From Desulfobacula sp. (GTDB lineage: Bacteria > Desulfobacterota > Desulfobacteria > Desulfobacterales > Desulfobacteraceae): a stretch of DNA of 64,000 nucleotides. The stretch covers positions 1 through 64,000 of the forward strand of contig NZ_JABZFL010000002.1 in assembly GCF_014237455.1 (NCBI RefSeq), in the 5' to 3' direction. The notes below the pieces were generated by a model. That model made no database searches. It was not told the DNA's origin and saw nothing but the letters and a program-made list of their open reading frames with translations. The translations under genes were made by a program, and so were the position numbers. Positions 7,686 to 12,463 of this stretch are shown in pieces; position 1 is the first letter of the stretch; every line of letters begins with the position of its first letter.

Positions 7686-9554
7686 TTAATACCTTCCTAA
7701 AATTCTAAGATTTTCCGATCTCTCCTGAAGTTTTACCATGACAGGTGCAAGGTCAGGGTGTTCAATGTCAGCTTCAATATCTACATAGAACATGTATTCC
7801 CAAGGCTTCCCAAGCATGGGGCGTGATTCCAGCTTGACAAGATTGATTTGATATTCTGAAAACACCTTCATCACTTCAAATAACGCTCCCGGCTTATGAC
7901 CAGTGGAAAAAATAATGGATGTTTTACTTACTTTTTTATGGCCTTTGATCTCTTTGGCAATAATGGCAAACCTTGTGTAATTCCTTGGATTGTCTTCAAT
8001 AGACTCTTCAAGGATATTCATATTAAAAATCTTTGCAGCCATGGTTGATCCGATAGCTGCAGCCTGTTTGTCATCGGAATCTTTGACGTGCCTCACTGCA
8101 CTGGATGTGGCCTTTACCGGTATCAGTTCAATATCAGGATATTGGTCCAGGTAATTTTTGCATTGGGAAAATGCCGGAGGCGGCGCAAGGATTTTTTTGA
8201 TATCATTTTTTGAAACATTTTCATGGACAATTAATGCGTGTTTAATCCTTATGGTAATCTCTCCGATTATTTTGAGATCATATTCCTGGAGCAGATCAAA
8301 ATTCTCATGGATGGACCCGGAAAGAGAATTTTCCAGCGGAATAACGCCATATTGACAATTTCCGGTTTGGACTCCATGAAAAATATCTTTAAATGTTTTC
8401 ATGGGGACAGGGGTAACCTCTTCACCGAAATAACCAAGGCTTGCCTTATGGCTGTAAGCACCATATTCGCCGATAAAGGCGGCTGTATTTGAATCTTCGA
8501 CTTTGGTATTATTGATCATTTCTGATTTTTTCAAATAATCGAAATCAAGCTGTTTACCGACGACCGGTGCAATCACATAGATATCCCGGGTCAGTTGACC
8601 AAACTGTTCCGGATAAAGGCTCTGGGGCCCGTCTGAAAGCGCATGATCCGGATCGTTGTGAACTTCAATCATAAGGGCATCCGCCCCTGCTGCCACGGCA
8701 GCCCTTGCCATGGGGCTTACTTTTTCCCTGATGCCGGTTGCATGGCTTGGATCAATGATAATGGGCAGATGGGTCAATTGTTTCAGGACCGGAATGGCGG
8801 ATAGATCCAGTGTATTTCTTGTATAAGGCTCAAAGGTCCTGATGCCTCTTTCACAAAGAATAACATTGTTGTTGCCTCCTGCCATAATATATTCTGCAGA
8901 CATCAGCCATTCCTGGATTGTAGAGGCAAGTCCCCTTTTCAGCACAACCGGTTTATCCATGCGGCCGACACATTTTAAAAGCTCAAAATTCTGCATGTTA
9001 CGAGCACCGATCTGAACCACGTCAACATATTTCATCATCAAATCCGCCTGGGACACAGATGTGATTTCCGTGACCACGCCAAGTCCTGTCTTTTCCCTGA
9101 CATCAGCCAGAATTTTCAAGCCCTCTTCTTCCAGTCCCTGAAAGGAGTATGGCGAAGACCTGGGTTTATATGCACCCCCCCGAAAGAGAACAGCACCATA
9201 TTTTTTAACCTCTTTTGCAATGGTCATGGCCTGGTCATGGCTTTCAACGGCACAGGGCCCTGCCACAATGACAATCCGGTCTGCCCCCACTACAACATTA
9301 CCGATTTTCACCTTGGTATCTTCTGATTTAAACTCCCGGCTGACAAGCTTATAGGATGTTTTTATCGGGACAACATCAGCAACCCCGTCTATTTGTTTAA
9401 ATTCATCCAGGCTCTTTTTGGTTTTGCCGATGATTCCGATTATATTTCTGCCCGCATCCATTATTTCACGTGTGATACACCCTTCATCCGAAATCATGTT
9501 TTTAATTTTGTCTTTCTGGTTTTGAGTAATGTTGCTTTCAAGTACAAGAATCAT
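7686..9554 (-). CDS. Bifunctional DAHP synthase (KDOPS-like AroF) / prephenate dehydratase with ACT domain
   Basis: [34 protein letters not shown] (DAHPS) followed by [27 protein letters not shown] and an ACT domain (PheA). Confidence 0.9.
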
Positions 9555-9584
9555 TTTCTCTCTCCTGTTAAATTACATAAAAAA

Positions 9585-9611
9585 AGGCCCCGGGGAATTT
9601 TTCCGGGGCCT
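9585..9611 (-). terminator. Intrinsic terminator B (AGGCCCCGG...CCGGGGCCT + U7) in the aroF-pheA leader
   Basis: 9-bp perfect arms followed by a T-run on the minus strand, before the gene start. Confidence 0.85.
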
Positions 9612-9620
9612 GAAAACTAA

Positions 9621-9656
9621 AAAACCCCGGGTGGCTTAATGTCCACCCGGGGTTTT
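9621..9656 (-). terminator. Intrinsic terminator A (AAAACCCCGGGTGG/CCACCCGGGGTTTT + U-run) in the aroF-pheA leader
   Basis: 14-bp perfect inverted repeat with 8-nt loop and T-tract on the minus strand. Confidence 0.9.
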
Positions 9657-9677
9657 ATTTAACTAAAAAATAAAACG

Positions 9678-9755
9678 TCACACCGGATGAACGCTCCTAA
9701 AAAAGAAAAAGAAGCGTCCAAAATTAAAATTGTTTATGTGTGTCATTTTATTCAT
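9678..9755 (-). CDS. pheL: Phe attenuator leader peptide MNKMTHINNFNFGRFFFFFRSVHPV
   Basis: 25-codon ORF with 7 Phe codons, five consecutive (TTC TTT TTC TTT TTT), just upstream of the terminators. Confidence 0.85.
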   Translation of the reverse strand: MNKMTHINNFNFGRFFFFFRSVHPV

Positions 9756-9778: not shown

Positions 9779-9807
9779 ACTCTACAGATCATTTCAATTC
9801 TTGTCAA
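9779..9807 (-). promoter_or_regulatory. Sigma-70 type promoter TTGACA-17-TAGAGT for the aroF-pheA leader
   Basis: Consensus -35 at 9802-9807, 17-bp spacer, -10-like TAGAGT at 9779-9784, 24 bp upstream of the leader ATG. Confidence 0.65.
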
Positions 9808-9822
9808 TATCAAAAATTAACA

Positions 9823-12090
9823 CTAAAATTCATGTTTCTTGAAATAGTCATAAACCGCTGCATTCGTACACACTTCATAATATTTTCTATCGGTCATGGC
9901 AATGAGACCAAGATCATGTTCATGAACATTCGGAATGATACCCTCCCGGATGATCAGCCATTGATTTCGACCGGTAACAGTGGGAAAAATCCCTGTAAAA
10001 AATTTTATTTTTTCCGATTGAATCTTTGGGATAACGCATTCAACCGGCTTGAGCCTGATCTCCTGGGATAATTTATTAAAGGCCGAGGGATGAAGTTCTA
10101 TCCCATTGACATTGTATCGCCTGGAAATATCATCGGATGTGGCAACCACATCCTCGTTGGACGCAGTCTGAAAAACATAATTGTTAAACGGTGTATCCAT
10201 GGAATCCATAATTTTTCTGGCGGCCTTGGAGCACCCTGACAAACGGTCTGCCATATTGATGGCGGATGAGATCATAATCTGAAAGTCACCATCAAAAAAA
10301 AGGGTTGGCTGACCCTTCCGGAACGTAATCCCGATACCCACTTCCAGAAAGGGAAAATCATATTTTCTATTTTTACGATTATATTGCTGTATGATCAGAA
10401 GAATATGTGTGGCAAGGCCGCATGCCCTGGCGATACTGTACCACCCTTCCGGACTTTCTTGTCTTTCATAGATTCCCAGAATCATGGCATCCCCTTCAAC
10501 AAAGACCTTGAAAGCCCCATATTCGGGAATAATCTCTGTTATGGGATCAAACATGTTAAGGCTGAAATAGGATGCGGGATTCAATCCCTGCTCTTTCATT
10601 TTGTGGACAATATCCGTGGATCCTCTGATATCAACCTTTAATATGGTGTGGCTGATCACCGGCTTTTCTTCGGTGGTTGATTCATGGGAAAGGAGAAATT
10701 CGTAAAGGGTGTTGTTTACCCTGGAAAGTCGAATATGATTTTCCTCCTTCACGAGATAAACAAGCGCCATGGCCCTCTCCAACAGCTTGAAATTTTCAAA
10801 ATCCCTGTGATAACGAAAAAATCCTTTGAAAAACCGTATCAGGTATGCCTCTTTTTGTGAGGTCCGCAAACCTTTAATACGCTTTTGACACCGTTTCAAC
10901 GATCTCGCGGAAAAGGGGACCTGATTAATTTTTGCCAACCGCTTGAGACGGTTTATACTAACTTTTCTGGTGCCGGGAACTATCATAAACTGTAAAATAA
11001 CCTGGGGAACCAGGGGAGGACAGTACTCCGGATAGACCGATCTTATCTCATAGGACGCACAGATTCTTTCCACCACCCCGGAAGATTTAAGTTTTTTATA
11101 AAAAAACCGCAACATCCGGTGCTGTCTTTGGGCCATCTGCCTGAGGGCCTTCAATTCTTTCCTTTTTTTACCCTGTTTTCTCTGTGCCCTGTACAATTCT
11201 CTGGTGGAAACAAAATCAAAAAGGAGGTCAACATTTCCAATCTGTTTTATCCAGGCGTCCACCTGTTTATCACTGACCACACCCCCTGTCCCATGATCTT
11301 TTGAACCCTTTTGGGAAAGACCGGGTCTGCCCATGGAGCGCAAATGTTTTTTAATGCTGGATAGCAACAGATCGTACTTATCCGCGTCATCAATGCGCTG
11401 ACCCGGAAGAATATCATAGGTGTCGATCATGAAATAATCATTATTTTTTTCGATATGTAAAAAGGGATTTAAAAACAGATCTTCGGGCAAAATACTATCC
11501 ATACCGAAATTTGACTTCCGAATACCATTCAGTTCCTTTTGATCAACATCATTTATATGCTCAAAAATAATTTTCCCAGTGGCCCGGATGATTGGGTCTT
11601 TATTCAGCAGAATTTCAGAAAGCTCTGCCTTCAAAACAACGGCATCATCCATATAGAAACGTCCGGAATTCTCCTTTTCCCGGATCAACAATCGGATAGT
11701 GGCAATAAATTTATCATAACAGACCGCGATTCCCTGAATCAGCATCTTGGCAACCGCTGTTCGGGCAATGTAATCCACTTGTATTTCCCGCTCCGCCTTT
11801 GCACGGTTAATGGCAGAAAGCATCACCTCACGGTAACTGTTTTTAAATTGATTCTTCTCAACAGCACCGCTTCCTTTTCCGGCGATTTCCCTGCCTTTTC
11901 CGGGCATGGCATTATCTTCTATGGTATGTAAAATAAACTGGTCTGAAACCTTGCAGAAGGTGTCGCTCAAATATACGTCATATCTGTTGTTGTCCACACC
12001 GGGTGTTAATCGATCCAGAGAAAAGGATATGGCATACTCTGTCACCGGGAATTGATCCAGACTGGGTATTTTGGAAGGCCAGACGCTCAT
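9823..12090 (-). CDS. Class III nucleotidyl cyclase-domain protein
   Basis: ILKVDIRGSTDIVHKM, VFVEGDAMI metal-site motifs, SSAINMADRLSG; start at MSVWPSK (12090), immediately after the stop of the preceding gene. Confidence 0.7.
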   Translation of the reverse strand: MSVWPSKIPSLDQFPVTEYAISFSLDRLTPGVDNNRYDVYLSDTFCKVSDQFILHTIEDNAMPGKGREIAGKGSGAVEKNQFKNSYREVMLSAINRAKAEREIQVDYIARTAVAKMLIQGIAVCYDKFIATIRLLIREKENSGRFYMDDAVVLKAELSEILLNKDPIIRATGKIIFEHINDVDQKELNGIRKSNFGMDSILPEDLFLNPFLHIEKNNDYFMIDTYDILPGQRIDDADKYDLLLSSIKKHLRSMGRPGLSQKGSKDHGTGGVVSDKQVDAWIKQIGNVDLLFDFVSTRELYRAQRKQGKKRKELKALRQMAQRQHRMLRFFYKKLKSSGVVERICASYEIRSVYPEYCPPLVPQVILQFMIVPGTRKVSINRLKRLAKINQVPFSARSLKRCQKRIKGLRTSQKEAYLIRFFKGFFRYHRDFENFKLLERAMALVYLVKEENHIRLSRVNNTLYEFLLSHESTTEEKPVISHTILKVDIRGSTDIVHKMKEQGLNPASYFSLNMFDPITEIIPEYGAFKVFVEGDAMILGIYERQESPEGWYSIARACGLATHILLIIQQYNRKNRKYDFPFLEVGIGITFRKGQPTLFFDGDFQIMISSAINMADRLSGCSKAARKIMDSMDTPFNNYVFQTASNEDVVATSDDISRRYNVNGIELHPSAFNKLSQEIRLKPVECVIPKIQSEKIKFFTGIFPTVTGRNQWLIIREGIIPNVHEHDLGLIAMTDRKYYEVCTNAAVYDYFKKHEF

Positions 12091-12091
12091 T

Positions 12092-12463
12092 TTAAAGCCT
12101 GAATTCTTCTTTGCAGTGGTCACAAAAAGAAGTGGCCAGCATTTGTTTACAGTGAACACACTTATCCGATAGATAGCGTTTCTTGCCCTGCATCTTATCA
12201 CAATCGGGACAATGCCAGTCTTTGTGTGTTGAAACAAATTTGTTACAATTGGGACATTTGACGGGAACTTTCCTGAAAACCAGATAAAAAATTCCTGAGC
12301 CAATAAAAAACGGGCCCAATAATTTAAATTGAAGCGTTGTTGCAAACTGATCAAATTCTGCCGAGCCGGAAAGAATAACCCATAGCAAAAAAAAGATGGC
12401 TGTGATTGCAAGAAATTTAAACCGAAAATGAAAAAAAACACTTTTTAATGGTTTTTCCTCCAT
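12092..12463 (-). CDS. Small membrane protein with C-terminal zinc ribbons
   Basis: Two hydrophobic segments, then CPNCNKF, CPDCDK, CVHCKQ, CDHCKE. Confidence 0.65.
   Translation of the reverse strand: MEEKPLKSVFFHFRFKFLAITAIFFLLWVILSGSAEFDQFATTLQFKLLGPFFIGSGIFYLVFRKVPVKCPNCNKFVSTHKDWHCPDCDKMQGKKRYLSDKCVHCKQMLATSFCDHCKEEFRL

Follow-up and report, generated by a model that had tools for sequence, protein, structure and literature searches.

Organization of the locus

The window (the whole 64,000-nucleotide stretch of Desulfobacula DNA that was analysed) carries on its minus strand a gene for a DAHP synthase-prephenate dehydratase-ACT fusion protein, preceded by a promoter-like site, a short Phe-rich ORF and two hairpins that end in U-tracts. 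The fusion protein matched the Pfam families DAHP_synth_1 (1e-81) and PDT (6e-59) along with DAHP_snth_FXD and ACT, and as these are enzymes of the Phe pathway, its control by Phe makes sense. All the elements of the locus were read on the minus strand and are given below from the promoter to the gene.

9779..9807, minus strand: sigma-70-type promoter TTGACA-17-TAGAGT (TTGACA 9807-9802, 17 bp, TAGAGT 9784-9779)
9678..9755, minus strand: leader peptide ORF MNKMTHINNFNFGRFFFFFRSVHPV*, 25 codons with 7 Phe (ATG 9755-9753, TGA 9680-9678)
9711..9719, minus strand: segment 1 GGACGCTTC, forming 9 bp with segment 2 in pause hairpin 1:2, of which it is the 5' arm
9683..9697, minus strand: segment 2, of which GGAGCGTTC (9697-9689) pairs with segment 1 and GTTCATCCGG (9692-9683) with segment 3
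9641..9652, minus strand: segment 3 CCCCGGGTGGAC, with the core CCGGGTGGAC (9650-9641), kept in the parsed loci
about 9656-9619, minus strand: predicted terminator A, hairpin 3:4 plus U-tract
9625..9635, minus strand: segment 4 GCCACCCGGGG, 3' arm of terminator A and putative partner of segment 5 when antiterminated
9619..9624, minus strand: U-tract of terminator A, 6 U
9611-9579, minus strand: predicted terminator B, hairpin 5:6 plus U-tract
9603..9611, minus strand: segment 5 AGGCCCCGG, 5' arm of terminator B, pairs with 9630-9622
9585..9593, minus strand: segment 6 CCGGGGCCT, 3' arm of terminator B
9579..9585, minus strand: U-tract of terminator B, 7 U
7686..9554, minus strand: DAHP synthase-prephenate dehydratase-ACT fusion gene, 622 aa (Pfam)

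The promoter, the leader ORF with its seven Phe codons, the segments and both terminators were all found where the original prediction had placed them, and the pairing of 9 bp including two G-U that it had proposed between segments 4 and 5 was borne out on reading the sequence. Its bulge in hairpin 1:2 proved unnecessary, as GGACGCTTC (9719-9711) and GGAGCGTTC (9697-9689) form 9 bp with two G-U. The first codon of the Phe run falls inside segment 1, and the leader stop codon lies just beyond segment 2. The fusion gene starts at 9554, about 25 nt past the U-tract of terminator B; being situated downstream of the sole promoter-like site and so close to the gene, terminator B must be disarmed for expression. 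Upstream, the attenuator adjoins an 872-aa ORF on the minus strand (9826-12441), whose stop codon lies about 16 bases before the -35 box and which had no Pfam match at E 0.001.

We consider the locus to be most probably a ribosome-mediated, Phe-responsive transcription attenuator in which two intrinsic terminators follow one another, placed before a fused DAHP synthase/prephenate dehydratase gene.

Conservation among Desulfobacterales

The fusion gene was present in 146 of the 390 sampled Desulfobacterales genomes at the chosen cut-off, the protein of the closest relative (locus L002) being 98% identical to that of the window. Systematic parsing of the stretches upstream of 139 orthologues in the order recovered the complete layout of leader, six segments and two terminators in 126 of them, a recurrence that indicates more than chance. 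Among the unparsed loci, L021 and L014 are cut by contig ends, with both hairpins still apparent in L014, while in L117 the hairpins are visible and the leader falls outside the retrieved stretch. The Phe leader is absent from ten of the 139 upstream regions; a strong terminator is also missing from nine of these, and the tenth (L018) is a decayed copy, which suggests that leader and terminators are gained and lost together. In the final 250 bases before the gene at L018 (genome G033) the Phe run is gone, and what is left of segments 3 and 6 has merged into one weaker hairpin.

The leader peptides of the relatives follow the consensus F-GRFFF(x)FR-VHPV, seen also as ...F-GRFFF(S)FR-VHPV(V), in the same frame in 109 of 120 loci, mostly with 4-9 Phe codons each and with a stop codon that in most loci ends 5 to 8 bases beyond segment 2; Desulfospira joergensenii also has a Phe leader (L225). 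The relatives thus share the small leader ORF, with repeated codons for the amino acid made by the pathway, that is expected of a ribosome-mediated amino-acid attenuator. The form of the promoter is kept as well, a TTGAC-16/18-TA site preceding 100 of 110 orthologous leaders where shuffles would give 2.75. Beyond the order, the strict leader pattern was not found in a sample of 395 genomes of the phylum, where its matches were confined to the window's genome and two others of Desulfobacterales. Many of the matches in a scan of named genomes (Streptomyces and others) lacked the leader and terminators and were rejected as chance.

Strength of the two predicted terminators

For 103 of 121 loci, as for the window, the stem of hairpin A is GC-rich, has an energy of about -24 to -26 kcal/mol and runs straight into U-rich sequence; in the remaining 18 its U-tract is weak or missing (L026, L089, L122, L133, L135 and L136 among them). 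The U-tract of terminator B is found in nearly all relatives, and the few low counts, on inspection, were parsing artefacts. The "fail-safe" wording of the original prediction is only half right: B is the more constant of the two terminators and A the variable one.

In those 18 loci the 3:4 hairpin is unlikely to terminate well by itself, and with the U-tract of B kept (as in L026, L122, L133, L136 and others) the layout is that of the his operon. It could be argued from them that B is the sole functional terminator throughout, with 3:4 acting as a protector hairpin against basal readthrough and its U-rich tail being incidental; however, the textbook intrinsic terminator at A in the window and those 103 loci makes this explanation rather unlikely. 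Under the favoured reading of two terminators in series, the coming and going of the first U-tract between lineages would provide natural one- and two-terminator versions of the same switch.

Coevolution of the alternative pairings

Coevolution was assessed by a swap test, in which native partners were set against foreign ones from other families by their duplex energy, whole families being permuted among 17. All the predicted pairings stood out (1:2, z -3.7; 2:3, -5.9; 3:4, -8.4; 4:5, -3.8; 5:6, -11.4), while the control pairings were flat (3:6, z -0.1; 2:5, +1.9; 1:4, -0.1; 2:4, +0.1) and linker controls likewise gave no signal in the family swap test. The mutually exclusive pairings 2:3 and 3:4 both coevolve with segment 3 common to both, as befits an attenuator, and the covariation in 2:3 and 4:5 that had been proposed as a check on orthologous leaders is present in both.

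For the linking pairing 4:5, coevolution at the level of families was significant (P = 5e-5) and stable with fixed-length cores, with any family dropped and when a single locus stood for each family (mean z -3.1). In 102 distinct rows its nine consecutive pairs are 92% paired in register; a shift by one base lowers this to 67%, and shifts by two to four bases to 13-45%. Some of these pairs have changed on both sides, families f9, f37, f41 and f45 having U-A in place of C-G. At the level of sequence comparison, the data show that this linking pairing has been kept by evolution in more than 120 related bacteria. The original prediction was to be given up if relatives lacked the Phe ORF or the 4:5 complementarity; both are there, and the idea survived.

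A simpler account would hold that the locus is a standard four-segment Phe attenuator with B as an ordinary back-up, the 4:5 complementarity being incidental to the C-rich 5' arms and G-rich 3' arms of the two hairpins. GC-rich terminators do cross-pair anyway, the mean 4:5 energy being -18.0 kcal/mol for native and -16.3 kcal/mol for swapped partners. It also weighs against the domino reading that segment 4 of the window's genus, like that of a few more, would pair better with many of the foreign segment 5s than with its own. Moreover, the genus-level test of 4:5 inside the window's own family gave only a trend (P 0.07), perhaps as the sequences there are too alike. Against this account, 4:5 coevolves at the family level whereas 3:6 does not, the pairing drops steeply on a slide of one base, the U-tract of B is retained where that of A is weak, and a terminator B left without regulation after the promoter and before the gene would hold the gene off; we regard this account as quite improbable. 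The other hairpins of the window were also considered as a null set, but as the scan returned only 19 of them, mostly weak, and missed B itself, this comparison carries little weight.

A duplicate origin of hairpin B, kept like A by gene conversion and complementary to it without selection for pairing, would fit the likeness of segments 3 and 5 (CCCCGGG in both) and of 4 and 6, but it predicts coevolution of 3:6 equal to that of 4:5, and with the observed 3:6 values flat (z -0.1 and +0.05) it was rejected as highly improbable. The reading of a two-stage "domino", in which releasing the first terminator also disarms the second, is supported by the conservation of the layout and by the coevolution of 2:3 and 4:5.

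Folding and proposed mechanism

Folding ensembles were computed with ViennaRNA parameters, and the values below are means over 120 leaders, computed rather than measured. With segment 1 covered and the transcript extending through segment 3, the antiterminator 2:3 forms at 0.96; when segment 4 is added, the equilibrium prefers 3:4 (0.91). For a transcript ending after segment 5, covering of segment 1 gives 2:3 at 0.59 and 4:5 at 0.57, compared with 0.13 and 0.18 in the free RNA, and in the complete transcript the equilibrium returns to 3:4 (0.88) and 5:6 (0.94). With segments 1 and 2 both covered, as in the translated state, 3:4 and then 5:6 form at 0.97 and 0.94. For the window's leader taken by itself, the ensemble of the transcript that stops after segment 5 contains 4:5 at only 0.12, although 2:3 together with 4:5 is the minimum-energy fold.

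With segment 1 masked, a check proposed in the original prediction, the shift to 2:3 and 4:5 appears after segment 5, but at equilibrium the complete transcript favours the terminators. Antitermination must therefore be kinetic, and as the balance of folds changes with each added segment, the antiterminated path would depend on the order of synthesis. The computed series is consistent with the domino.

The dynamics in the cell, the role of Phe and termination at A and B are inferred, and can be envisaged as follows. When charged tRNA-Phe is plentiful, the ribosome would reach the stop codon and cover segment 2, whereupon 3:4 (terminator A) would form and halt RNA polymerase, and any polymerase escaping A would meet 5:6 (terminator B). 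If the ribosome is released or translation is absent, 1:2 would form and both terminators would fold. When tRNA-Phe is scarce, the ribosome would stall in the Phe run over segment 1, allowing segment 2 to pair with 3 and leaving segment 4 single-stranded; the free segment 4 could then capture segment 5 once it is synthesised, and segment 6 would emerge partnerless. A single stalling event would in this way defeat both terminators, with 4:5 serving as a lock on 2:3 as well as a block to B.

Related leaders in the same genome and elsewhere

The same Phe leader was also found before single DAHP synthase genes (L233, L234, L236 and L267); at L267 a chorismate mutase-prephenate dehydratase-like gene comes next. 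In L197 and L254, an ACT-pair protein is encoded behind this leader and its tandem hairpins, followed in turn by a DAHP synthase gene; this protein, assigned to Pfam ACT_8 in L197, may be a detached regulatory subunit of DAHP synthase.

The window's genome has a second DAHP synthase gene (contig C95, L142) with a Trp-rich leader, MFLYIETN...PLWRWWRKNTCSSSLP, including ..PLWRWWRK.., followed by two tandem terminators with complementary inner arms. By prediction, this leader is a second, independent tandem-terminator attenuator in the genome. Its relatives are L146, L147, L150, L152-L155, L160 and L164, and automatic parsing worked for about ten of the sixteen Trp leaders. The N-terminal residues FLYIETN are conserved in close relatives though they lie outside the RNA segments. 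The DAHP synthase leader of L146 combines Phe, Tyr and Trp (DYFFRFYCW) and might respond to more than one aromatic amino acid. The genome's pheA, a chorismate mutase-prephenate dehydratase-like gene (contig C109, L143), has its own Phe leader MVTVDKFFTFFWYFFKILHSLW with a single terminator and is the four-segment counterpart in the same genome; L145 likewise has a separate Phe leader and a single terminator before such a gene.

On the whole, it seems likely that the tandem-terminator leaders represent an attenuator class spread across Desulfobacterales, in which one stall defeats two terminators through the conserved 4:5 lock, with Phe and Trp leaders in one genome and a first-hairpin U-tract that varies among lineages. 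Leader-peptide control of aromatic amino-acid synthesis would thereby be extended to an order of sulfate reducers, one genome of which holds three distinct predicted attenuators. Attenuators in general have to be designed against basal leak. This family joins an extra hairpin to a late stop codon and has a further terminator as well, and some of its natural variants lack the first U-tract. It thus offers a natural set for comparing the effects of stop-codon position, protector hairpin and tandem termination on leak and dynamic range.

Comparison with known systems

Identity with a known Rfam family was considered and rejected, as the window had no match at the gathering score and a relaxed search gave weak matches only. 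The trpB motif (RF04312) resembles the leader in its two successive hairpins and terminator tail, but its matches were sub-threshold, the best having 43.5 bits against a gathering score of 59; in five loci, no Phe leader family was among the Rfam matches up to E 5.

The Phe attenuator of the E. coli pheA/pheL type has four segments and one terminator. It shares with the present locus the Phe-rich leader, the 1:2/2:3/3:4 logic and the control of prephenate dehydratase, and differs from its six segments and two terminators. The original prediction compared the locus with this type only; the six-segment alternation of his and the tandem terminators of erm(K) are already known, and the design is less unprecedented than claimed. 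Searches covering few subscription journals found no paper on tandem-terminator amino-acid attenuators, nor any on Phe attenuation in Desulfobacterales. An amino-acid attenuator whose middle and last hairpins would both be terminators, joined by a conserved 4:5 pairing, was not found described in these searches and appears to be a new variant.

In the macrolide-resistance attenuator erm(K), two adjacent Rho-independent terminators are controlled by a stalled leader ribosome, as described in PMC4335068. The likeness lies in a leader ORF with a pair of neighbouring intrinsic terminators behind it, predicted here from sequence alone; the difference lies in antibiotic stalling and a resistance gene there and an amino-acid biosynthesis gene here.

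The closest parallel in segment logic is the his operon of Salmonella, for which a six-segment alternation is established, B:C with D:E against E:F, the default being A:B with the terminator E:F (PMC4046918). Its leader has an extra hairpin between the pause hairpin and the terminator, and in a published model that also counts pheA among attenuated genes, this hairpin and a late stop codon were each proposed to lower basal readthrough (PMC1183508). Common to his (Salmonella/E. coli) and the present locus are a run of regulatory codons in the leader, six segments and the stalled state 2:3 with 4:5, indicated here by complementarity and coevolution. The differences are His codons and the histidine operon there versus Phe codons and the DAHP synthase-prephenate dehydratase gene here, and one terminator (5:6) there versus, here, an additional U-tract at 3:4 in the window as in 103 of 121 loci. 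Only a minority, L026 and L133 among them, have the single-terminator form of his. Compared with his, the window's leader stop past segment 2 corresponds to the other strategy for low basal readthrough (PMC1183508), alongside the extra hairpin.
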